Source: Cloeon dipterum (taxonomy: Eukaryota; Arthropoda; Insecta; Ephemeroptera; Baetidae). Taken from it: a stretch of 64,000 bases of DNA. Under the pieces are notes generated by a model. It did no database searches. It saw nothing but the letters and a program-made list of their open reading frames with translations, and was not told the origin of the DNA. Location: positions 3,348,001 to 3,412,000 of the forward strand of contig NC_088789.1 of NCBI RefSeq assembly GCF_949628265.1, in the 5' to 3' direction. A program made the position numbers and the translations under genes. Positions 12,901-40,338 of this stretch are shown here, piece by piece. Numbering within the stretch: position 1 is the stretch's first letter; every line of letters starts with the position of its first letter.

Positions 12901-15900
12901 CATTCATTCCCCCGCATCTCGGGATTACCAAAGGGTTCGCGATCGCGTGGGCTCTTTCCTTCTCACTTGCCGCAGGTTGAAAGGTCTGCTGACTCAAAGG
13001 AGGCGAGTGAATTCATGTCTTTATGACCGTCATTTGTAACCTGATGCTGTTCTTTTATTGCACGATATTTCACGGCAGGCCATTCGCTGCCTCAACCTGC
13101 TTTAAGCGATTTTGGGTTGTGAGCACTTGAACAGGTCTTTTATGGTTTCGTTTGTTGAAATTAAATTTTTTGTTGCAATTCGTGGGAGGGTCACGCGTGA
13201 GATTTTATAAATCGTAATATCCAGAAATCGCACGTCCCACGCCAGACATCTTTATGCAAAGCAAGTCTTTCACATTCAAGAACAGCGAACAGAATATTAT
13301 GTATTGGTTGTACAAACACGGACTCCGAACATGCAAATATTTGCAGAGCCATGCACGTTATACGCCAATGAGCATAAATAATCTAATCGTAGAAAACCAA
13401 AGTGGCCAGAACCGAAAAAGGCACAGGAGATGGAGGTGCTAACCAAAACTTAAACGTGTTTTCCCCCGCAGATCGTGCAGTCGAGCAGCGCGTCGTCGAC
13501 GAGTTCGCGAGTGGCCAAGCGAGTGCAGCACACGAGCAGCAGCAGCCACCTGAGCCACCAGGTGAGCGAACTGAAGGCGTCCTCAGTCAAGTCGGACCTG
13601 TCGGAGTTGCAGTCGAGCATTTCCGAGATGAAGAACCTGTCGAGCACCAGCAGTAGCAGCAGCAGCGTCACCACGCAGCAGAGCAGCAACTTCCGCACCG
13701 CCGCCACTGCCCTGTCGACGGCCGCCGGCGCCCTGAACGGCGTCTCCGACCTGCTGCGCAACTCCCTGGAGCAGCTGGACGCCGACGACAACGTCATGGG
13801 CGACGCCGAGGTCGGCAACGGCGAGCCCATCATCACCTTCCCCGAGCCGGACACGCCGACGACGCCGCCGGCCATCGGCGCCCTCACCTCGCCCAACCTG
13901 GTGGTCAACAGCATGGCCCTGGCGGGCACCAACAACAGCAGCGCCACCACCACCGCCTCCGAGATGAAGTTCGAGCAGAAGCGGGTCACGTCGGCCACCA
14001 AGACCAAGGTGGTCACCGACTCCTTCAGCACCGGGGAGGTCACCTTCCAGCAGCAGAGCGCGGCGGCCGCGGTCAGGTCGCGCCTCGAGATGGAAGGGGT
14101 CACCGCCGAGAAGAGCGCCGCCATCAAACAGGTAGGAATTTGCGTCTGACGCAATAATCGCCAGATTAGATAATGTGACTGGGTAATGACGTTGGAATTT
14201 TTCGAATCTGCATAACTGGGTGACTGCTTCATCATTCAGCCGGGATTTTGAGGAGGTTGGGGGGTCACGGTGTATGTTTGGTTAAAAAATTGCGAGTCAT
14301 TCAAGCGAGGCTAAAACTTTTGAAATAAATGAGCATAATAAACACTTAATTGCCTGTCAGAAAATTTCTCAACTCGATCCGCCTCCACTTTATTTATGAA
14401 CACGCGTAACATGCAGTAAAAACTAAACACAAATTGCGTCGTATGTTGCGTGCAGCAGTCCGCTGGCATGAATATTTAAAAGCCATTATGCATTTCTCAC
14501 TTTTCTGCCTCTCTCGGGGGCTGAGGAATCCAGTTTGCGAGCCAACACCAATAGTTGAATGTGTGGCGTGGCAGCGACACCGCCGATACCGTGAGTGTCA
14601 TCGGATCATAATTTAAATACACTCTCTCATTGCAAAGTGAATCACCGCCTTCCTCTGATTGTGACGAGGAAAAGATCAAGCAATTGAGAGAGTTAAATTG
14701 ATCGTGGTCTGGTGCCGGCTGGGTGGGCAGCCAGTGGGCTTTTGGCCGAGAGCCCACTTTGAGCGTGAGTGAGTCAACCGGTCGCGTCGAAAACGAGCAG
14801 GAAAGACCGAGAGAGACACACATGCAAAAATATTACCGCGGTTCAGAGAAGAGAAGCGGCAGAAAAACACGCGCTTCGAGAAAACGGCGCGAAAAGCCTC
14901 TGATTGGACGCTCGGTGGGACTTTAAGTTAGCGGATTGCGTCATGGGCGATTATTAGCATTGAAGAAGAGAGAGAGAGCAAAGAGGCAAAAGTCATCTCG
15001 CGGGGAGAGACACTCACACGCAGTCAGTCTGCGTTTGTGTGCTTGGACGGTGGGTGCTCGACGCGAGCTCCCTGATAGCGCACGGATTTAATCTGCCACC
15101 GCCGCACCTTCGACCAAAATGACGCTCAAGGTAGAGTGACGTCGCTTTGCTTGTTTTCCTGTCTCTTCTTATTTAATAGCCTTATCTAGAGACGCTTGTT
15201 AATTCATGTTTTTCACTTACTTGCATGTGCCAACCTCTCATAGCTCCAAGTTTCTTCCACGGGCAATTATTATAATTGATACATATATTTTCATTTAGGT
15301 TTAATTTTTTCTTGTCAGGTAGTAAATAATAATCTATTCTTCAATGAAAATTAAATTTGAACTTGGCTATGAAGCGATTAAATTGGACAACATTGATTCT
15401 TGTGTCGATGCCAAATCAATGAGGAAAATCTCGTCGAAAAATACTTGATGCCCTGCATTAAATTTAGACTGCTAATTGGAGAAGTTTGCGACATCACAAG
15501 TCGAGAATAGAGCCGTCCGAGTTGATGTGGCGACGAAACGGTCGCTTTGGCATTTCTGCCTGCGCGATTTAGCATCCGATCAATCAACTTGATACCACGG
15601 GAGCAGCGAAACACGTGCCATAATATTCTCTCAGATGGTGAGCCACCAGAAAATAATGCTGCTTTCCGTTTAGTTAACCGCTGCTATTTTGGCTTCGGTT
15701 ACTCACAGATATTTGTTGATATTAGAGGGCATGCTCGTGTGTTCATTATTAGACATACAAAGAGTTTGCGCTTAAATCGGATTGCGTGTTTATCGGTGAT
15801 AAATCTCACGTTCCGCAGCGTTCTTACACCATTTTGACTAAATTGAAAACGTGCGCTCCGATAAGGAGATGTCAGCCAATCCTTGAAACCGATCAAACGT

Positions 15901-18900
15901 GTTATCAGGTGTCGCCAACCTGTGAAATGAATAAAAATAGATTTTGCACACGCGGACGAAGATGGCAAGCAAGTTGAAACATTTTGTGAAATTATGGGGG
16001 TCAAAACTCACGCCGCCCATGTGCGTGACATTTGCCCCTGGATTTAAAGTAGCTATGCAACTGCTGCAACGGAAGTGCACAGTTACTGCCTAAATCTGAT
16101 TTTTTGCGTGAGATTGAGCCTACTTAACAATAGTGAAGAAAGGATGTTAAAAAAAACTTAAACGTCACCGTGTAAATATTCCTTTTTATCAATATATCAA
16201 CAAATGGCGTGAACCATAATTAAATATGCAACGAACTCGGTGATACAGAGCATAATCTCTGCGTAAAACAAATGAGAAGCTACGCGAGCGCAGCAGAAGT
16301 GTATTTAACGTGAACGTTGGTCGTTCGGCTGCGAATGCACGCTGCGTTTGCCTTGTGGCATACATATCGATTGAGGCGTGACGTCACTTTGCTTCCGAGG
16401 GTGGCCTAGAGAAGGGTGGGGTGGTCGGCCTGCGGATTCGGGGTCAGAGCCGCAACACCATGCGACTGGCCGCCTGTGCGGTGCTGGCCCTTGGAAACTG
16501 TGGCCGCCGTCTTGCCTTTCGGCCGCTGGCGGAACGCTTGTTAGCGCCCCAACGGAGGACACCCCCCGGCCTTGTGCTTTTTGTACGTAAGTCGGCGGCG
16601 TGTTTTGTTCTCTTTCCGGTCTGCACCTGCTTTTTGCCTCAACCCAAAATATTTACGTTTATTTTGGCCCCGCCGACACGAGGCCTCCCCTTGGTTTCCA
16701 TTAGCACTCCTGGGCCTTGAGGGCTCTTGACATTATTTTTTTACTTTCTATATTTAATCCTCGCGGCACTGAAAATAGCCTTTTGCTTATTCAAGGGGTG
16801 ACAAAAAAGTGCCAAGAATCGACTCCCTGGGGTGACACTTTGTAGGACACTTGAGTTTTTCTAGGTAAAATAAATAATTGCGCGATTGCCATGCGCTTAA
16901 TGTGTAGGAAATTCCGTTGGCACGTTCGGGATCTATTTGAGGAGTCATTGATTTGTGCCCTCGTTGCGAATCTAGTTTGCGTCTCCCAAACTCTTTGATA
17001 TGACATGAAAGGATCGCATAAAAAGCTCCAACGCGTGCCAAAATCGGTTTCGCACGCATTCGGGTCAGAAGAAGAGCAGCAAGTTCCAAAAACACTGATC
17101 GATAGGCGTCGCATGTTGTATGCATGACTTCTCAGCACAATTCTCCACGCTATCCGCTTCTTCGTCCTTTTAAGGTTGAATTTAATGAGAGGCAGCCTTG
17201 CGTCAAACGATCTAGCGTGAAATCTAAACTTGGGACCGCATGAAATAAAAAATATATTTTTTAAAAATTTTTATTACTTTAACACGCCGATTTGACGATA
17301 CAATAGTTTGGCAATCGATTCGATGGGCGGCTAAGGTGGATTTCGGGAGGCGCACGTCCACACGCGGCTAATTGGATAGGCTGGCCAAGTGCGAGAGCGC
17401 GGATGACGTCGGCCAGTTAGGCCAGAGTAAAATTAGAGCCCGCGCGTTCAAAATCTCGTTGCATTAGTCGAGATATGAGGCTGGTCCTGTCGCCATGTCG
17501 GCTCCCTGGCCCGTCCACAAGGGGCTGTACAAGCGGGTGCCGTGGATCTCGCAAGGGTCGCGGCAGGACAAACGCAGCAGTCACGTGACCGTCCGCCTGG
17601 TGAGTCTTGCGAAACACTTGCGTTCACTCGCGGTGCGCAGTACTTGCGCTCGCCGCGGCCGGGGCATGCCGCGTGTGTGTTTTTCGCCGAGAGCTTCGAA
17701 ATAACGTCCGTTGCGAAAGGCATTTTGAAGAATAGCATATTGAAATAAATAGCCTCTCGAGCTTTACTGCTGCAAAAGCGGCCGCGGCGTGACGTCAGGG
17801 GTGAATTCCTCGGCCGGGAAGCCTCATTTTACGTTGGAAAAACAAAGGTGTTTGTTTTTGCGAAAAAATGGCGTGCTCTACGGTACCTAGCTGCTTAACG
17901 CAATTTGCCTAATGGATTCCAGCGAAGGCGTGAATTTGCACAGTAAACACCACGCGACCGCCAGCACCAAACAGAACCGTGTCTTTTGAAAATAAACCTA
18001 GCGCCATAGCTGAATCCACACACGCATTTTCCAATCAAACTATTTATACTCCGTGCGTTGCTTTCGTTTGCAAATAAAATAGCGTGCAAATTTAGCAATC
18101 CAACCGTCTGGAATAAGTGAAGCAAATAATTGAATTTGATTACCATCTCTGCGCTGATGGTAATTGTAACAAGTTGCTTTGCATTGATTCGCCATTAGCA
18201 AGGTATTCCGGCTAATGACCCTGACGTTAATGGGAAAAGTTTTGGTAGATTGGTACGCGCAGGGTAAATACTTAGTTTTTCCACGTTTATTGCGCCCCAC
18301 CACGTGACCCCGCCGAACACAAATACAATTCCGAGTAAAGCACGAATTCAAGCTTTGCCCATTTCGTGTGTTGCAGGAGCAGCGATCCATCAAATCCAGT
18401 GAGGTGACGCAGCAGGAGAGCCAGAACATTGCCGCCTCCAGTGTCCGCCTCCAGACTGAAGCTTTTAGCACTGAAAAGGTAAAAGGCCTCCTCAACCCTT
18501 TCTGTGGGTCCGTCTAAAGAAAGCGTGCACAGGCCTTGGCGAGTTAAAAATACTTTCTTTCAGCACTATTGATTCATTGTGTAAACAAGTCTGCTCAAGC
18601 CAGCTCACGAGTTCGTTTCCTCCACCGCACGCTTTGAGCAAATATCCTGGTTTCCTGGCTAAAAAGTGCTAATTTAAATTTAATACAAGGCTTGCGTGAC
18701 GCGTCCCAATGTCAATGTGTTGACTGGCCTTTTCGTATAAATTAGACAAATTAAAATTCAATTTCAGTGAGGCCGTATTAATATTTTCAAATTAAACGTT
18801 AAACTTTTTATTCTATTATTTAATAGTTCAATAAAACAAGAAAATATTTGTTCATTTTGAATGTGGCCTAAAGTTAGCCGTCGAAATTTTTAATGCAGAT

Positions 18901-21900
18901 AAATATCTTTACACGATAGCATGAGTGGTGCACGGGTCAAATTTAAAACGTAATTAACTCTGATCTAATTCCCACTTGCAATCTGTCGTGCAGAAGGCTG
19001 TAAGTGCCCAACAGCAGAGACAAACCGTAACCTCGTCAGGCAGCATATTCAGCAGCAACCAGGAACACGTGTCAACGTCGTCACAGTCGAATTTCACCTC
19101 CATTGTCACAAAAGACGTGCACACAAAATCTTCTTCGGCGTCAGTCGTTTCGTCGGCGCAGGTAAACGATTTATTTCTTACTTGCTTTGACCCGCTTTGC
19201 GTGTGGTCTGTTAAATTCACCACTGCCTTTTGTAAGAGCAAAGACAATCAAATTTGGTTCAAGTCCAGCAATCAAAACAGATTTAAAATAAAAACCAATA
19301 TAAAATTCTGATTTTCCTGTTTCAGATGAGCTCTTTAGTGAACGGATCAAACATGTTGAGCGTTGAGGAAGACAATGGTGCGTTGGTTCTTGAAGACCTG
19401 GAGCGTCTGTCTCTGGTGTCGAGTCAGCAGGACGTGGAGCGGGCCATCCAGAAGTGCACCACCTATCTGAACAGCCAAATGCCCAAGCTGACGCAGCCGA
19501 CCGAAGCCATCCAGAGTCTGACGCGCGTCAACGATCTGGTGCGCAGGGCATGGGCCGTGCCGACCCACGGACACGAGCTCGGTTACTCGATCTGCAACTC
19601 GCTGCGCACCAGCGGCGCCCTCAACCTGCTCATCGAGAACTGCGTGCAGTCGGAGGCCAACCTCAGGTTCTCCAGCGCCCGTCTGCTCGAGCAGATCCTT
19701 ACCACTGAGAACAGGGCGCACGTGGTGCAGCATGGCCTGCAAAAGGTCGTCAGTGTCGCCTGCAACAGCACCAAAACCTTCAACACAGTCGAGCACTCCA
19801 GAGTCGGCACCGGCATCCTCGAGCACCTTTTCAAACACAGCGAAAGCACCTGCAGTGAGGTCAGTATTTACGGGACATTTTTAATATCAGCTTGAACGGC
19901 TTAAAAATTAAAATTCGTGTCATTTTATATCATTGGTCTAAATTATAAAAGTTAATACAAATTATTGATGCATGGAATTTTGTCTTAAAAATATTTGTTT
20001 ACATCATGAGCAATAAAAAACATTATATAAATTTATTTTCTGCTCAGGTGGTGCGATTGGGTGGACTGGACGCGGTCCTGTTTGAGTGCAGGAAAAACGA
20101 CGTGGAGACACTGCGGCACTGTGCCGGCGCCCTGGCCAACCTGTCGCTGTACGGCGGCGCTGACAACCAGGAGGCGATGATCAAGCGCAAGGTGCCGATG
20201 TGGCTGTTCCCTCTGGCGTTCCACGACGACGACAACATTAAGTACTACGCGTGCCTGGCCATCGCCGTGCTGGTCGCCAACAAGGAGATCGAGGCCGCCG
20301 TGCTCAGGTCGGGCACGCTGAACCTCGTCGAGCCTTTCGTCTGCTCACATAATCCGTCCGAGTTCGCAAAGTCGAATCTGGCGCACGCGCACGGCCAGAG
20401 CAAGAACTGGCTGCAGAGGCTGGTGCCTGTGCTCAGCTCAAAGCGCGAGGAGGCTAGGAACTTGGCCGCCTTCCACTTTTGCATGGAAGCCGGCATCAAG
20501 AAGCAACAAAACAACTCGGAGATCTTCAAGGAAATCGGTGCTATCGAGCCTCTCAAGAAGGTAACGATATTCTCTTAATTTTCCAGAACGTTTCTAAATG
20601 TTTAAAATTACGCAGGTTGCCAGTTGTCCAAACGCAGTGGCCTCAAAGTACGCCGCCCAAGCACTGCGCCTGATGGGTGAAGAGGTGCCGCACAAACTTA
20701 GCCAACAGGTGCCTCTGTGGTCGTCAGAAGACGTCAGAGAATGGGTTAAGCAGACCGGCTTTACGGAATACGCACAGAATTTTGTGGAATCAAGAGTGGA
20801 TGGAGACTTGCTGCTGCAGCTGACTGAAAATAATCTCTGTGATGACATTGGCATCACGAACGGAATTAGAAGAAGAAGGTATGAAGCTAAAAACACGGAG
20901 AAATTAGACAAGTCTAATTTATTTTTTCTAATTATAGGTTCACTAGGGAACTGCAAAATCTGAAGAAACTTGCCGACTACAGTAGCAAAGACGTTAGCAA
21001 CCTCAACTCCTTTTTGCAAAATATTGCCGTCGAATTCTCTATTTACACGTATTCCATGCTCAACGCTGGCGTTGACAGGGACTCAATTAGGTTTGTAGTG
21101 TGACGTGATGGCTTGAAAGACGTTGTTTCTAAATTAACCATTTCTCGCGCCCACAGAAGCTTGACTGAGAATCAACTAGCAAACGAGTGTGGAATTTCAA
21201 ACAGCATCCATCGACAAAGGATTCTCGAGTCGATCGGCGGCCTGGAGAGCGTCGTCAACTCGTCGCATGAAGATCTGGCCAAGCCTCTTGACGTCTTCGT
21301 CAGCTACAGGCGCTCCAATGGATCTCAACTCGCCAGGTACTGACAGCGAAATTTTTAAAACGCTTCACTAAGATATCAGCTAACAACTGTAGTTACAAAA
21401 ATTAATTTTTGTCGTTAACAGTTTGTTGAAAGTCCACTTGCAATTGCGGGGATTCTCGGTGTTCATTGATGTTGAGCGTCTGGAGGCTGGAAAATTCGAT
21501 AACAACCTGCTGCAAAGTATCCGAAATGCCAAACACTTCTTACTGGTTTTAACTCCTAACGCGCTGGACCGCTGCATCCAAGACGTCGAATGCAAAGACT
21601 GGGTTCACAGGGTAAGCATGCCAGATGCCAGATTTCTAATTTCCTTTTTTTATTCGCTGAATTTTCGATGACTCAACATGATTTTTTTTACAGGAGATTG
21701 TTGCTGCACTGCAGTCTCAGTGCAACATTGTCCCAATAATCGACAACTTCGCGTGGCCCGAGCCTGAAGAGTTGCCAGAGGACATGCGCGCCGTGTGCCA
21801 CTTCAACGGCGTCCGCTGGATCCACGACTACCAAGACGCTTGCGTGGACAAGCTGGAGCGATTCCTCAAGGGCGAGATGAATTTGCGCGGCGGAGGCGGC

Positions 21901-22071
21901 GGCACCACCACCAGCAGCCTCAAGGGCGAGAACACGCCCTCCACGCCAAGCAGCACCATCGGCAGGCATCCGCCCACCTTTCAGCGCACCCTGAGCAACG
22001 ACTCGGGCAAGGGCAATGACAACAAGGACATCAACGGCAACTCAGGGAGTGCCGGGATTCGGCGGGACTGA
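812..22071 (+). CDS. SARM1: SARM1/Ect4 orthologue: ARM-SAM-SAM-TIR NAD+ hydrolase
   Basis: SARM proteins cleave NAD+ through the TIR domain and drive programmed axon death; insect members are Ect4/dSarm. Exons read: 812-952 (one of several first exons), 11428-11622, 13472-14131, 18377-18478, 18994-19161, 19326-19859, 20048-20560, 20616-20878, 20938-21090, 21157-21336, 21422-21611, 21694-22071. All have GT-AG borders and phases agree throughout, giving about 1158 residues. Roughly: 1-420 Ser/Thr/Gln-rich; 423-800 ARM repeats, with the RAWAVPT and [10 protein letters not shown] blocks of the family; SAM1 about 804-870 ([13 protein letters not shown]); SAM2 about 872-945 ([12 protein letters not shown]); TIR about 955-1090 ([37 protein letters not shown]). 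The protein is longer than vertebrate SARM1 (about 724) mainly at the N terminus. The stop is TGA followed by CTAG; see the separate extension entry. Confidence 0.96.
953..7399 (+). other. Long first intron / promoter-rich stretch of SARM
   Basis: AT-rich intron with GC-rich islands near 3180-3860 and 6130-6600. A GTAAGC donor-like site at 3798 follows a GC-rich block, but I found no supported coding frame for it. There is a short TG repeat near 2516-2530. No RNA gene or transposon was recognised. Confidence 0.5.
7400..7447 (+). CDS. SARM1: SARM alternative first exon B (16 codons)
   Basis: ATG at 7400 in a GC-rich island opens [16 protein letters not shown] and ends at a good donor, CAG|GTAGGA, in phase 0. 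It could join the phase-0 acceptor at 11428. Identification rests on ATG, donor, phase and local GC rise only; no clear TATA box was seen. Confidence 0.5.
7448..10803 (+). other. SARM intronic stretch, no gene seen
   Basis: AT-rich sequence with GC-richer patches near 7680-7900, 8560-8900 and 9880-10260. Open frames occur on both strands but none shows a domain, codon bias or paired splice sites. Confidence 0.45.
10804..10851 (+). CDS. SARM1: SARM alternative first exon C (16 codons)
   Basis: ATG at 10804 in a GC-rich block opens [16 protein letters not shown] with a CAG|GTTCGT donor in phase 0, 576 bases before the 11428 acceptor. Initiator-like TCAGT occurs near 10766. It resembles exons A and B in being short, phase 0 and GC-rich. 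Not proven; the donor is mediocre. Confidence 0.45.
11623..13471 (+). other. SARM intron between coding exons 2 and 3
   Basis: Mostly AT-rich with a GC-rich patch near 12430-12980. The downstream acceptor is a clean polypyrimidine tract ending CCCCCGCAG at 13471. No additional feature was supported. Confidence 0.5.
13472..14131 (+). CDS. SARM1: SARM exon 3: 220-codon Ser/Thr-rich linker region
   Basis: A single phase-0 exon of exactly 220 codons, very rich in Ser, Thr and Ala, with strong G/C third positions. It contains serine runs, a stretch of TP pairs ([10 protein letters not shown]) that could be proline-directed phosphosites, and an acidic block ([16 protein letters not shown]). No globular domain is recognised. 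Because it is phase 0 at both ends it can be skipped without a frameshift, and transcripts from first exons D and E must lack it. Coding status is clear; function is unknown. Confidence 0.9.
15119..15130 (+). CDS. SARM1: SARM alternative first exon D (4 codons, MTLK)
   Basis: ATG in a good context (CCAAAATGA) is followed after four codons by AAG|GTAGAG in phase 0. An initiator-like TCAGT lies at 15024-15028, giving a leader of about 95 bases. It is downstream of exons 2 and 3, so it could only splice to 18377 onward, yielding a shorter SARM lacking the 220-codon linker. Confidence 0.4.
17495..17599 (+). CDS. SARM1: SARM alternative first exon E (35 codons)
   Basis: ATG at 17495 opens a 35-codon frame beginning [17 protein letters not shown], ending CTG|GTGAGT, a near-perfect donor in phase 0 that matches the 18377 acceptor. 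The exon is GC-rich in an AT-rich intron. The N terminus is basic. It would make a SARM without exons 2 and 3. Confidence 0.6.
21157..22071 (+). other. SARM1: SARM TIR domain coding exons with the catalytic glutamate at an exon start
   Basis: Three exons (21157-21336, 21422-21611, 21694-22071) encode the end of SAM2 and the TIR domain. The glutamate in WVHREIV matches human SARM1 Glu642, the catalytic residue. Its GAG codon is the first codon (21694-21696) of the last exon. The loop [12 protein letters not shown] and the [11 protein letters not shown] block match the vertebrate protein closely, so an active NAD+ hydrolase is expected. Confidence 0.93.
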
Positions 22072-22894
22072 CTAGACGGCCACGCCTCGGCAGCTAACCT
22101 TTCGAAGTGAGTGCTTGAAACATTTATCTTTTTCATTAACTGCAATTTTCTATTTTTCCTGAATCTCTTCTTGATGTAAAATTAAATTGAAGAAAGCACA
22201 CTTTTTGTATCACTAGAATTTTTGTAGGGTGTATTTTAATTTTAAATTAGCTCTCACCATGCATATGAATAACTAACACCTATATTTTCTGGCGTCAATT
22301 CTACCATAGCCTATTTTATAACCTGATTAATATACTAATTTTAATTGTCAAATCAATGTTAAAATAAGTCATCTGCTATTACATGCAAACATTTCAACCT
22401 TTACAAATTGTTTCAATCCAATTTGTAGCAATCCATTAGTAACTATAGCCTGTATTTGTTGTGTGTTCAGGTTGCGCAACCAGAAAGGTCGTCCGCCCGC
22501 GAGTCCACTACTCCGTCCACGCCGTGTCGCGCAGATCGCCGGACACAGCAGCCCACGACCACCAAAGATGCCGAGCAGGACACACAGCTTGGACAACATG
22601 CTGGACAGGGAGAGTTCGCAAGAGCCAATTGGGGACGAGGCCGCCGTGGTGAAGGCCTGCGAGAAGTACTTGAGCGCCACAGAACTGAACCAGCCGACCG
22701 CCCCGGAGCGGCCGGTGCGCGCCGCGCCGCCCCTCGCGCGCGGCCACAGCTGCGACGAGGCGGCCACCGCCGGCCAGCGAAGCTGCAACGACGGCGTCCG
22801 CTCCGAGTCGGTCTTTTCGCTTGATGAGCCCAAGCGCAAACGCAATTTCATGGACAAGTGCGTCAACAAGGTGCGCTCCTTCATAAAAAAGTAG
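22072..22894 (+). CDS. SARM1: Candidate stop-readthrough extension of SARM (about 152 codons)
   Basis: After TGA (22069-22071) the frame stays open for CTA GAC GGC and on to 22106, where AA|GTGAGT is a strong donor in phase 2. The acceptor TGTGTTCAG at 22470 resumes in the matching phase, and the frame stays open to TAG at 22892-22894. Exon 22471-22894 has G or C at most third positions in this frame, like the rest of the gene. It encodes a Pro/Arg/Ala-rich tail with a SLDNMLDRESSQE segment and a basic end, KRKRNFMDKCVNKVRSFIKK, that could act as a nuclear or membrane signal. The only GT between about 21850 and the TGA (22049) would splice out of frame, so skipping the stop by an ordinary donor is not possible. 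Alternatives: a 3'UTR exon, or separate translation from ATG 22567. Confidence 0.65.
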
Positions 22895-23843
22895 TGATTT
22901 TTGTACATTTATTGATGTCACACACAACAATACTTTCTCTTCTGTTACGCAGGGACCTTGATTAGTTGTCGGATCTAGAGATTTAGCGTGTAGCCGTAGG
23001 TTAACATTCTTTTCTCGAGCTAAAAGATGCATATATACTTATCAGGAGGTCTCCACTCAAAAACCACTACATTAATTAATAAAAGCAGCTTTAATTGCAC
23101 TGAATGGCCTTAACCATTGTCTTTGTATGCCTTATTTAATAAGTGTCGACATTCTCAAGGGCTGAGCTTTTTGAACCGACCGGTTCTAAATAACCGTTTT
23201 TTCCAATCAAAAACAACAAACAGGAACACCTTTTGAGTAATTTGTAGTATTTTCCACAACTCTTCTGTATTCCACTCATTAGTTGGTAAATAATCCAGGT
23301 TAATTAGAAAACTAATCAATTCTGAGCTAGATTATTAAAAAATACAGGAAATTGAGTTGTAAATATTTGGAATTCGGTGCAGAGAATTATTGACATTTGT
23401 GTTACTGATTACAGAAGCTAGTCCAATTCAATTTCTTACAAACAGAGGAAGGGGAAGTTGATTTATTTTGTCCGAGATACATGTGCGTAAGGAATATTTC
23501 CTGTCTGTTAAGTTAGGGTTAATTTTCAGCTTGTGAGCGTACCACAATTTCGTGTGTATAAACGACAATTTTAATTTTTAAGTAGACCTTGTGAGTCAAT
23601 TTTAGTTGGTTGTATATCATTCTCTCATACATATGACGACTTGTAAAGCTAGGCAGGCGATTAATATTATTTGTACATTTTTGTCGACTTCATGCCTTGG
23701 AAAGAATTTACTATCATTATTAACCGCAATTGGAGACACGCCAGCATTTTCAAGAATTTGCTTCCTCCTATGTATCTACTTTGATATTATTTATTAACAA
23801 ATCTTATAATAAACACACACACACACACGCACACACAAACACA
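22895..23843 (+). terminator. SARM 3'UTR with two polyadenylation signals
   Basis: AATAAA occurs at 23078-23083 and again at 23808-23813, after an AT-rich non-coding stretch. The second is followed at once by a CA repeat. Either could end SARM transcripts; the distal one would give a 3'UTR of about 0.9 kb. Confidence 0.55.
23813..23843. repeat. (CA)n microsatellite
   Basis: Imperfect CA/CG repeat of about 30 bases directly after an AATAAA signal. Confidence 0.85.
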
Positions 23844-25578
23844 TGAAACTTCTATATTTGGCGAACGTGCGCCAGGTTGGAAAAATAAAGAGCATTATTA
23901 GTTTTAATTAAACAGCTGTTTGCTTTGAACTTCAACCCGTCCAGAGTTATGCGATGCGCGCAACGTCCCGTTAAACGCGATCCGCAACATGCTAGGCAAG
24001 TATGCGAAGCCGGTTGCATAATTCGTGACTGGCAGGAATGCGCGAGAATCACGTTTATGATTTACTGTCAGAATACCAGTTTGCAGATTAGGGATAAAAA
24101 AAGCAGCCGAGCATTTTTCTCGCACGCCTCTCGCTAAATGCTTGAAGGTGGCCGAAACATCGAAGTTATTTCAAAATGTTTTTATTCAGTTTGAATTATT
24201 TTTACGTTATATTTGAGTTAAAAATTGTTTACAGATCAATCTAAAAATTAAAATTCACATTTTTAATTCATTGAATTTACCATCAGAAACAAATTTGTGG
24301 TTTAAGAACGTCTAATTAAGAAACTTAAGTGAAGTTGCATGATGCACTCTAGAAACAATTTACGATATAAGAGGATTGATGCGGTTGAGGCTTTATAGTT
24401 TCCTCCTTTATTATAAAAAATAAATGTTCTTGTTTGGAGAAGGGAAATCCGTTAATATTAAAATCAAGGGTGACTAACTAAATTGCTGCAGAAATTTCCC
24501 AACTTGAGAATTTCAGCTATCTCCGCACATAAGTGTTTCTAAGCTCTGATGGAAGCTAGTGACACATCTGTACAAATTTTAAAATTTTACTGAAATCAGT
24601 CAATTGGAAAAAACGATATAAATCTCCTGTTTTTCCAAAGTACTGACTTTCTTTCAAGCTGTAAAGATTTTGACTTGAAATTTATTTTCCACCTAACCCT
24701 GAAGAAGTTTTGAGCCTATGCATGACTCATTTTTTACTCTTCAAAGGGTTCATAACACTCAACAATTAAAAAGAGGCAACCTATATGATTAGAAAATTTC
24801 TTGTTGCAAGAAAAAATAATAACAAAATGTACTCTACCCATCTGAAACAAATTTTTAGAAGATATAACTGATATTTTCCATTGATAATAGCAATTACCAG
24901 CTAATTTTTTTCGTTGGCATTGTTTAATTCTATCTCAAACACTGGTGACATGGCCATAAATTGAAATTAATCGGCTCCAACCGTTTTTCCTGGGAAATTT
25001 AGTTTGCCACGATTTGCCGGGGTCAGGACTCAGGATCCCACAGTCGAAAGTCAAGACAAAAAAACAGTGATTGATGAGTTCCAAGTACCGAGTTGGCATT
25101 TTTTTTTCATTTTCATTTTCCTTCAATTACCAAATAAGTCTCCTCTCCCCTGGAGCTGATCTCTTGGTGATGATGAAAAATGGAAATGAGCAAAGTCCAT
25201 TTTAACAGTCGAAGAAAGGTGGCGGGCAATAAATTTGGGTAAGATAATCAGCATAAAATCGCAGTTTAGTGGCTGCCAAATTGATACTTAACTTTTCGCA
25301 CGCTCTCGCGGTGTCCGGAAATTCTTGGCGGCCGCGCGGCGTTTTGCATACCTGCGGCATTTTTACGACTGGCGCAGAGGAGATTATTGCCGCGCGCGTA
25401 ATTAGGAAATATATGCTAAGGTCGTCCCTCCCGGAGAGTGAGTGTTGTCCGTAGCTGTGTATTGGCAGCCGAAGCAGGCAGTCGGTTCTTCTGCTTTTTA
25501 TAATTGTGTTGCATGCGCGCTGCCGGTTCGGAACGAGGGGTTGCGTGTCTCCGGCTACTGTGGGAAATAACCGCGCAT

Positions 25579-25604
25579 GAGAGAGAGAGAGAGAGAGAGA
25601 GAGA
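25579..25604. repeat. (GA)n microsatellite
   Basis: Perfect GA repeat of about 13 units in a GC-rich island. Such GAGA runs often lie in arthropod promoters, but no transcript start is visible here. Confidence 0.85.
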
Positions 25605-26979
25605 TGCGATGCTGCCTGCTCTGCTGCTGCTGCCATTTTTTTCACTCGTCAGCATCGCGCAGTCATTTGGTGAAAAACAACACTAGTAGCCAATCGGCCC
25701 GCGGCGATGCAGCTCTTTTATTTCTTATTAATCGTGAAAAATGGAGCCGCCGCCGCCGCACTCTCGCGCACTGTGAGTGCTCTGCTCGGCCAGCAGCAGC
25801 AAGAAAAGCATTATGTAAATTTTATTAATAGGCCAACACAATGCCGGACCTAATATTTTATGGTCCATCAACGCGTCGCCGTGATATCACTTTTTTATTG
25901 CCTGTTCTCGCGGAGAATCGGCTGCTACTGTCATTAAGATTTCACAGCCTTCAGCAGGCACAATGATACTAACTCCTTGGGACCCACAGTTCATCAATTT
26001 CTAAAAATAACGAGATAATTCGCTAGAAAACTGTGAAAACAATCGATTAAAATTGTAGAAATTTGGCTCAAGTTACGCAGAACTATGAGAATATAAGCAA
26101 ATTATTTTATTTGGGTCAAATAAAACCTTTCGGCAGTTAATTTTTTACTATAAAAATTTATTATCTCTATCTGATAAACCGCTATAGCGTGTGAGTTTCA
26201 GAGCCTTAATATTTTCGTTCTGGATCAAAAAGATTAGGTTAAAAGACTAAACTAAATAAGACAAATAAAAAATGTTTTCATATTTATTCAAAAAAAATTG
26301 GCAAATAAGGGACAAAAAACAAACATCATTGCGGATTGACTGCTGCGCACTTAAAAAATTGAAAACTCATTATAAAGGTCTCCGAGCTTGCCCTAAAACA
26401 GGAAAAAATCTACATAAAATATTCAAAATATATATTTAACACAGTTTTTAATTTTTAGAGTACATATTTTGTAGACCAGTTTTGTAAGCACAGATATTCG
26501 CTGCAACTTTTAAAGTGCACTTTTCAAATGAGGACGTAGCTACAGAAAAATTCAGATTTCCCAAATTGCTTGCCATGTTTTTAAGCAATTTCAATATCAC
26601 TCATCGAAATTTAAACGACAGTCTTATTAGAGGGAAAGATATCATGAAATATTGAACTGTTTAAATTTTACAGACACATTTCAATAAAAATTGGGCTTTC
26701 CGAAAAAAAAGGATTTTTCTGGTGGCTCATCTCAGCATCATTTCTCTTAAAAAAATAAAAGGAATCCTTTTAAATGTTTTGTTGCAAATTTATTTATATA
26801 TAGAATCAATTTAGACAGTCCACGGAGGAACTTTACTGTTGAATTTTGCGGGGAAGGGTGCGCAAACCATAATAAAAAGGCAGCGACGTTGAGCAAGTGT
26901 GTGTAATGTCCGTGCACAACAGATGCATATTTGAATACACAATTTTGTTGCAGGAGCGGGGCGGTAATTATTTCATAGC

Positions 26980-38900: not shown

Positions 38901-40338
38901 ATAGAGGTCTCAACCGCGTAATTTTGGGTGGCGGCTGCATGCCCGGCCTAAGCCTAATTTTGGCCCGGCGGCTGAGAATTTTTTCAGGCGGAAGAAATAT
39001 TAAAAGCAAAGTTTGATAGTAATTAGCAGCTCCAATGGCCAAAAATAAAATTTTTCGCCAGCAATTTTCAATTTTTGACTTTTTGGCTGGCACAGCTTTA
39101 CTAAAGTCAATTTTCCGCAACATTCTTTTTTGTTGTGTTTATTTATTTCTGGACAGCACCATTTAATTAGTGAAAATATTATTTTTCAGGCAACCCTGCA
39201 GAACCCAGCCAACATTCCTGTGGTGCTGGCTAGTCCGTGCGTGCTGTACCAACCAGGGACGCGTCGCAGCAAGTCCGGCCGCGACACGTGGCGGCAGAAC
39301 GAAAGCTCGCTGCCGCTGGGCATGGTGGTGAACGCCGTCTTCCGCAACCACAACTGGCTGTACGTGCACACTCCGCACGGCGAGGCTGGCTACGTGCGTT
39401 ACCGCTCATGCCTGCCGCTGGGCATCCTGCCGAGTCCGTGCGTCTCGGCGCCCGGGACGCCGGCCCCCGGCGCCTGGGACAGCCACTCGGACGCCTTCCC
39501 CCCGCCCCCGCCACCCACCGTGCCCAACAAGGTGCGCCGCGGGGCCGCCAGCGTGTGCGAGCGCCGCAACAACAAGACTGACAACGAGAAGCTGCGGGAC
39601 ACCGTGTCCGAGTGCGGCGGCAGCGGCGGCGGCGCCAGCAGGTCGAGACACCGCAGCAGACACCGGACGCAGCGACCCGAGGCCGCCGTGGACAGACTGT
39701 TCCTGGCCGCGCAGAGGTCCGAGTCGGAGAACACGAGGCACCGCAGGCCGAGGAGCAGCGTCGAGACGCTGCTCAAGGACGCCGAGCTCAGCTCGCGCCG
39801 CTTCCGCGCCGAGTCGGCAAACATCGACTCGGTCAGTGTGAAAGACTCAGTGTCCCAGGTGGGAGTGCGCTGTCCGAAACCAAAGTACCCGTCCTCACGC
39901 AAGATGGGCAAGCTGGAGAACTACCAGTACAGGATAGAGCAGAACCTGAGCCAGCTGAAGCCCAACCACAGGACCATCGCCCTGCAGACCGACTTCGACG
40001 AAGTGGACAGTCTGGTCAAGGACTGCGTGTCCGAGGTCGGTCGGACCAGGAGCAAGGAGATGGGCCGGTCGCGGGGCGCCATCTCCGAGTGCGGGGTGAA
40101 GGTGAAGAGCAGCAGGGCGCCGTCCAGTGCCGCCCTCAGTGAGGTGCAAATGAAAACCGAGACCCTGCTGCTGATCAGGTCGGACTACAACAGCCGCGGT
40201 CGCAACACTCTTTCCGTGTCCAAAGGTGACGTGGTCGTGCTCGTCAGTTCCAGACTCAAGGACTGGTTTTGGGTGCGCAGAACTGATGGCTGTGAGGGGT
40301 TCATTCCGGCCGTGGTTGCTGGACATGGATTTTTGTAG
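32904..40338 (+). CDS. Two-SH3-domain scaffold-like protein, family not recognised
   Basis: Exons: 32904-32973, 36049-36188, 38112-38570, 39190-40338, GT-AG borders with matching phases (1, 0, 0), giving about 605 residues. The first exon encodes MLAQLCNPLMARRFKLAPF; the second is acidic and Glu-rich. Exon 3 is Ser-rich. The last exon starts with an SH3-like fold (about 225-300; NWLYVHTPHGEAGYVRYRSC) and ends with a clearer SH3 domain (about 545-605; SDYNSRGRNTLSVSKGDVVV then DWFWVRR, EGFIPA), running to the C terminus. Between them is an Arg/Ser-rich disordered part with the recurring motif D-x-V-S-E-x-G. SH3 domains bind proline-rich ligands, so an adaptor role is inferred. The start could differ, since upstream 5' exons are possible. 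I do not recognise a named orthologue. Confidence 0.82.
32974..36048 (+). other. Intron of the SH3 gene
   Basis: AT-rich with a GC-rich patch near 34840-35170 that includes TTTATAAAG and a GA-rich run, possibly another promoter. A short repeat segment at 35699-35785 is shared with 55632-55726. Confidence 0.45.
35699..35785 (+). repeat. Short dispersed repeat shared with 55632-55726
   Basis: The blocks CCGAGGTCTTTTATTGAAA and GCTGGAAAGGTGC occur in the same order and similar spacing here and near 55632. Probably a degraded transposon fragment; type unknown. Confidence 0.45.
36189..38111 (+). other. Intron of the SH3 gene, very AT-rich
   Basis: Contains the inverted-repeat element at 37755-37891 and the palindromic run ATTAATTAATTAATTAAT near 37468-37486. 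Nothing else was recognised. Confidence 0.5.
37755..37891. mobile_element. 137-bp inverted-repeat element (MITE-like)
   Basis: The left arm begins ATTGTCAGAAGAATT and the right arm ends AATTCTTCTGACAAT. The inverted match continues imperfectly for about 30 bases, with CGACCTCGG facing CCGAGGAAGC. No certain target duplication was found. Only one copy is seen in the window. Confidence 0.6.
38902..39110 (-). mobile_element. Truncated MITE copy (AGAGGTCTCA family)
   Basis: Begins TAGAGGTCTCAACC, then has GGCGGCTG blocks, AAAGTTTGATAGT and AATTTTTGAC as in the other copies. It lies in the intron just before the SH3 exon at 39190. The far terminal repeat is lost. Internal similarity places it in reverse orientation to the 63236 copy. 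Confidence 0.6.

Follow-up and report, generated by a model that had tools for sequence, protein, structure and literature searches.

A candidate readthrough extension of SARM beyond a UGA-CUAG stop codon in Cloeon dipterum

The SARM gene

In axon degeneration, SARM acts as the central executioner. The window analyzed here (64,000 nucleotides of the Cloeon dipterum contig NC_088789.1, positions 3,348,001 to 3,412,000; coordinates below are those of the window) carries a gene that, judged by the homology of its ARM, SAM and TIR regions to SARM, is SARM, the ARM-SAM-SAM-TIR NADase. All its features lie on the forward strand. The exon of the ARM repeats (20048-20560, start read from the sequence) was recognized by phmmer and by Pfam Arm; it matched Drosophila SARM (PDB 7lcz) at E 3.7e-94 and, in phmmer, human SARM1 too. 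The SAM exon (20616-20878) contained Pfam SAM_2 (5.5e-14), and the exons at 20938-21090 and 21157-21336, the latter leading into the TIR, were placed by the open joined frame and GT-AG introns. Pfam TIR_2 scored 27.3 bits in the TIR exon (21422-21611), slightly below the 28-bit cutoff; when the TIR parts were joined, the match to human SARM1 reached E 4.1e-62. The last TIR exon (21694-22106), placed from the sequence and the alignment with human SARM1, holds the remainder of the TIR, a tail running to the TGA and 35 nt beyond it. WVHRE aligns with human WVHKE, pointing to a TIR catalytic glutamate that we take to be human E642. The tail between TIR and UGA would comprise about 60 residues. The five introns before the last TIR exon are 55-85 nt long, and the intron predicted after the TGA is 364 nt long. 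No relatives of the TIR exon were found in the viral contigs, genome contigs or plasmids collections.

The stop codon and its context

The first in-frame SARM stop is UGA (22069-22071), with CUAG immediately 3' of it (22072-22075), as an earlier note on this DNA had read it. CUAG followed only 13 of 9625 sampled TGA triplets (both strands, the SARM one included), showing that the combination is rare. By the motif evidence in the available text of PMC4132726, UGA-CUAG is a readthrough-promoting context: it drives readthrough in four human genes, with 12 nt of 3' sequence being enough, and among 23 human UGA stops with CUAG the four with positive PhyloCSF are the four proven by reporters. When the RNA around the SARM stop was folded, no stable structure beyond that of shuffles (z +1.07 and -0.93) and no strong stem-loop was observed. 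Since predicted conserved structures accompany only 9% of the readthrough candidates in the fly-mosquito comparison, as excerpted from PMC5100048, the missing structure at the SARM stop is not telling, though fly dfr (stop UAG) needs one: there, context alone was insufficient and a stem-loop was required (excerpt of PMC13170385).

The open frame past the stop

After the UGA, the same frame runs 35 nt to a donor at 22106|GTGAGT (phase 2) and is taken up in phase past the acceptor 22470. It closes at TAG 22892-22894, which an in-frame TGA at 22895 adjoins as a tandem stop. The donor, its phase, the acceptor, the open frame to 22894 and the basic tail that the earlier note had described were all recovered. 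The extension would comprise 152 sense codons, of which 12 residues (split codon included) precede 140 codons in 22472-22891. Donor 22106 matches 5 of 7 consensus positions, and the other five SARM donors match 4 or 5. The possible extension divides into part 1 (22072-22106, LDGHASAANLS plus 2 nt), which is open and has no coding signal; a predicted GT-AG intron of 364 nt (22107-22470, GC 0.283); part 2a (22471-22567), which is GC-rich and open with no codon-position signal; and part 2b (22568-22894), which runs from an in-frame ATG to the TAG with a strong coding signal. An AT-rich 3' UTR follows (22895-23889, GC 0.342 and 0.345, AATAAA at 23884). If the intron were retained, the readthrough frame would hit a UGA (22107-22110) and add only 12 residues. 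Splicing of the 364-nt intron would thus decide whether the extension is short or long.

A GC-rich block begins at the acceptor (22468; 22458-22487 within 2 lnL) and ends at 22837 (22805-22883 within 2 lnL), somewhat before the stop at 22894. It is flanked by the intron (GC 0.283) and by the UTR (GC 0.34).

Codon statistics of the extension

Codon scores were obtained with a model trained on the ORFs of 262 kb, SARM held out, and with two other training sets, high-GC3 ORFs (12 of 29) and the SARM exons. When scored as a whole, the extension was the best of six frames and none of 5000 shuffles equaled its score (z 4.3); with the other training sets z was 4.7 (high-GC3 ORFs) and 4.0 (SARM exons), with 0 of 2000 shuffles each. 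These whole-extension figures average over a signal-poor first part and a strong later part. In the second exon, 111 of 140 third positions were G or C versus 160 of 280 first and second positions (Fisher p 8e-6). The synonymous-only signal of the extension was weak (z 1.3 and 0.6). Its absolute codon score was about zero (-0.024), lower than that of the TIR exon (0.083) and of the ARM exon (0.238), while the tail before the TGA scored lower than the extension (-0.157). For the whole extension, the three models gave summed log-odds of -3.7, -11.5 and +3.3 bits.

When the extension was split at ATG 22568, the last 108 codons (22568-22891) gave z 5.2 with 0 of 2000 shuffles, and G or C occupied 63, 52 and 93 of the 108 first, second and third positions, respectively. 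By contrast, the 44 codons directly past the UGA gave z -0.1, a score reached by 1072 of 2000 shuffles (GC 32, 27 and 26 of 44), showing no coding signal. A z as low as this was seen in 0 of 47 overlapping SARM windows and, at equal window length, in 5 of 200 training windows, including 1 of the 37 GC-rich ones. The undisputed low-complexity tail just before the TGA gave z 3.8 (1 of 2000 shuffles). The best start of the signal was 22586 in two models (within 2 bits, 22565-22592 and 22583-22787) and 22787 in the third; coding signal thus begins near the in-frame ATG 22568. In this single-genome test, then, the coding signature directly past the stop was absent in the first 44 codons and strong in the last 108. 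The G/C-biased third positions claimed earlier for the second exon held for 22568-22891 (93 of 108) but not for 22472-22567 (18 of 32), nor for the 44 post-UGA codons (26 of 44).

The signal-poor segment 22472-22567 is nonetheless GC-rich (24, 21 and 18 of 32 by position; 63 of 96 in total), unlike the nearby noncoding sequence. A basic, proline-rich linker could have GC-high first and second positions with no third-position bias, and a GC-rich leader ahead of an internal AUG could give the same 44-codon composition. We regard 22568-22891 as very probably coding.

The predicted extension protein

The extension, 152 residues as predicted, is rich in A, S, R and P. Its 140 second-exon residues had no Pfam match and no PDB match to E 1, and gave one match in the genome of the species itself (190 Mb, 10 contigs); relatives of the extension were absent from the viral contigs and genome contigs collections. 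Single-sequence AlphaFold2 gave a poor model of the 140 residues as a whole (mean pLDDT 54.8), in which residues 56-71 and 120-139 form helices and the last blocks have values of 81 and 80. The terminal helix (22829-22888, PKRKRNFMDKCVNKVRSFIK) is predicted from the AlphaFold2 model (120-139) and the hydrophobic moment to be basic and amphipathic: the last 16 residues, a tail picked after inspection, have a moment of 0.677, which 61 of 20000 shuffles equaled or exceeded, and a net charge of +4. The extension also contains one KRKR and four R-x-x-S/T sites, and RTLS lies ahead of the TGA; as sequence motifs these suggest membrane or nuclear targeting and phosphorylation. From the terminal helix and the KRKR motif, we infer that the tail may retarget the NADase. 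ACEKYLSATELNQPTAPER is a candidate extension peptide for mass spectrometry.

Readthrough and its alternatives

Stop-codon readthrough, the reading put forward in the earlier note, accounts for UGA-CUAG and for the in-phase continuation better than any single rival, and the later part of the segment is coding-like, as that reading would have it. The stretch directly past the UGA, where coding signal was absent, does not bear it out, and bypass splicing from a GC donor or an internal start could serve in its place. Because the signal is missing from the first 44 codons, our estimate for readthrough was lowered from fairly probable to slightly more probable than not, and those for bypass splicing and an internal start were raised. 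Readthrough is the single likeliest route by which the downstream segment would be joined to SARM.

A rival reading, which we judge unlikely, is that splicing excises the TGA and thereby connects the downstream segment to SARM as coding sequence, with UGA-CUAG a coincidence. The donor would be a GC site of the TIR exon or the weak GT 22048, and the acceptor would be either 22470 or an AG further on, with which the signal-poor stretch would be skipped too. The earlier claim that no GT donor bypasses the stop in frame was upheld insofar as 22048|GTGCCG, the one GT donor past the TIR part, matches 1 of 7 consensus positions and does not share a frame with acceptor 22470; it is, however, in frame with the weak AGs 22439, 22448, 22487 and 22622. 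From 21690 to the TGA there are 11 GT sites in all; the other 10 sit within TIR-coding sequence, none of them beyond 21843, and the five in phase with acceptor 22470 (21713-21794) score -5.7 to -9.9. That claim had considered GT only, and several GC donors would, in theory, splice out the TGA and keep the frame. There is thus no good GT bypass, and a GC donor bypass is possible on paper. When in-frame donor-acceptor pairs were scanned, 30 were found (27 GC, 3 GT), and 129 in a widened scan (85 with GT inside the TIR, 4 with 22048, 40 with GC donors); both are raw counts. The GC donors 21871, 21925, 22006 and 22036 have 5 of 7 flanking matches, equal to the best real GT donors here, and 22006, 21871 and 21925 score 5.2, 4.4 and 4.4 versus 4.1 for 22106, by a donor table that takes no account of the C of GC. 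GC donors with at least 5 matches are somewhat more frequent here (4 in 219 nt) than in the ARM exon (0 in 511 nt) or the extension exon (2 in 420 nt). The rarity of GC donors in animals counts against bypass splicing. Most candidate acceptors have pyrimidine fractions of 0.29-0.53, and 0.65 is reached by 22428 and 22470 only; the real acceptor 20615 is nevertheless just as pyrimidine-poor (0.41). A junction at any acceptor up to 22487 would leave the greater part of the second exon's signal-poor stretch in place. Splicing round the stop also leaves CUAG unexplained, together with a donor 22106 that is in phase through the TGA (1 in 3). On the other side stands fly SARM, for which the literature gives eight isoforms (PMC9223315, PMC9788811) or nine (PMC9223396), some with C-terminal extensions absent from mammals (PMC9223315); the "exon 21/22" of PMC9223396 may be two forms of the last TIR exon.

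If the coding part instead starts at AUG 22568, through an internal promoter or reinitiation, it would encode a basic protein of 108 residues separate from SARM. The coding signal begins near 22568, the ATG has A at -3, and the GC-rich, signal-free 22471-22567 could serve as a 5' leader; this reading explains neither CUAG nor the in-phase junction, and we consider it quite unlikely. It is less probable still that no translation occurs past the UGA and that the GC-rich block is open by chance. That the frame is open says little, since of 5000 dinucleotide shuffles 249 were equally open and each of the second exon's six frames has 0 to 4 stops, and the lack of Pfam or PDB matches and of signal in the first 44 codons would fit chance openness. 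The z of 5.2 in the last 108 codons argues against it, as does a GC-rich block bounded by the acceptor and ending near the second stop. A UGA read as selenocysteine, edited to UGG, or arising as a recent nonsense allele or assembly error would each open the same frame, and we hold all of these together to be very improbable. No SECIS element was found among the Rfam matches to E 5 in 18000-26000. The A to be edited is preceded by G, a poor ADAR site, which counts against UGA-to-UGG editing. A chance change or error would not supply CUAG, and the segment had one match in the species' own genome.

By readthrough, most ribosomes would terminate SARM at a leaky, programmed UGA (22069-22071), and a minority would decode it by a near-cognate tRNA owing to the 3' CUAG. 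These ribosomes would cross the predicted exon junction 22106/22471 and translate about 44 codons of a basic, proline-rich linker with little codon bias, then the constrained 108-codon part ending in the basic amphipathic helix, and would terminate at UAG-UGA. The tail may, speculatively, change the location or partners of the NADase.

Comparison with known systems

The vertebrate UGA-CUAG genes (OPRL1, OPRK1, AQP4, MAPK10) resemble SARM in having UGA-CUAG, no strong 3' structure found and a frame that goes on. They were proven by reporters and conservation; the SARM case is a candidate. The lengths given for their extensions are 13 residues in MAPK10 and typically 28 in AQP4, versus 152 with a signal-poor first part in SARM. 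Readthrough genes of insects and crustaceans (the Jungreis, Dunn and FlyBase sets) share with it a UGA with C next and a long, partly disordered-looking extension; those sets rest on comparative or profiling proof and the SARM extension on a single genome. Most of the insects that were tested, and the one crustacean, show abundant readthrough, with T. castaneum and A. mellifera as exceptions (PMC5100048). Most annotated fly extensions are 8-300 aa long, UGA is the commonest stop and the long ones have disorder-like patches (excerpt of PMC4528330). Fly extensions can span splice junctions, as in 2 of 20 rows of Table 2 in the accessible part of PMC3840789; those of RhoBTB and RpL27A cross one, and the SARM extension may likewise.

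Drosophila dSarm/Ect4 is similar in that its TIR is followed by a short tail or by a longer one absent from mammals. Its tails are described as transcript isoforms, and the likeness to the SARM extension is by description. In the available excerpts, an Ect4 construct containing the TIR spans 829-1360 (PMC9937023), E893 is numbered on fly isoform E (PMC9223315), and the fly TIR exons are followed by an intron (PMC9223396). The construct and E893 suggest a fly tail of about 400 residues if the numbering is shared. The fly authors speculate that N- and C-terminal SARM extensions absent from human SARM1 hold extra activation mechanisms (available text of PMC9223315). When the literature was searched for SARM1/Ect4 stop codon readthrough, a C-terminal extension or tail peptides, nothing on this gene appeared among the matches listed, which does not establish its absence from print.

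We also offer a more doubtful proposal, in which the long tail at the C terminus of SARM would be an ancient module of pancrustaceans, its dose controlled by translation termination in this lineage and in flies by alternative splicing. Through readthrough, a small fraction of SARM molecules would then acquire a basic amphipathic tail, possibly directed to membrane or nucleus, which would tune the site of NAD+ destruction. If the leaky stop adds the tail to a minority of SARM, the short and long forms would be separable by altering the stop alone. The locus would then be an arthropod UGA-CUAG case with a long, spliced extension, a kind of system already known.

Other features of the window

A GC-AG stretch of 87 nt (22007-22093, CGG|GCAAGG to CGGCAG) would excise the TGA in frame. 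Its AG stands about 22 nt downstream of the CTGAC at the stop, a spacing that resembles that of a branch point. Upstream of SARM, 13450-14281 is GC-rich and holds long overlapping open frames on both strands; one of these (13454-14149, forward strand) is serine-rich, had no Pfam match above the cutoff and is perhaps an N-terminal SARM exon. Further downstream, an open frame of 419 codons (39079-40338) encodes an SH3 domain at its C-terminal end (Pfam SH3_2, E 2.2e-06).
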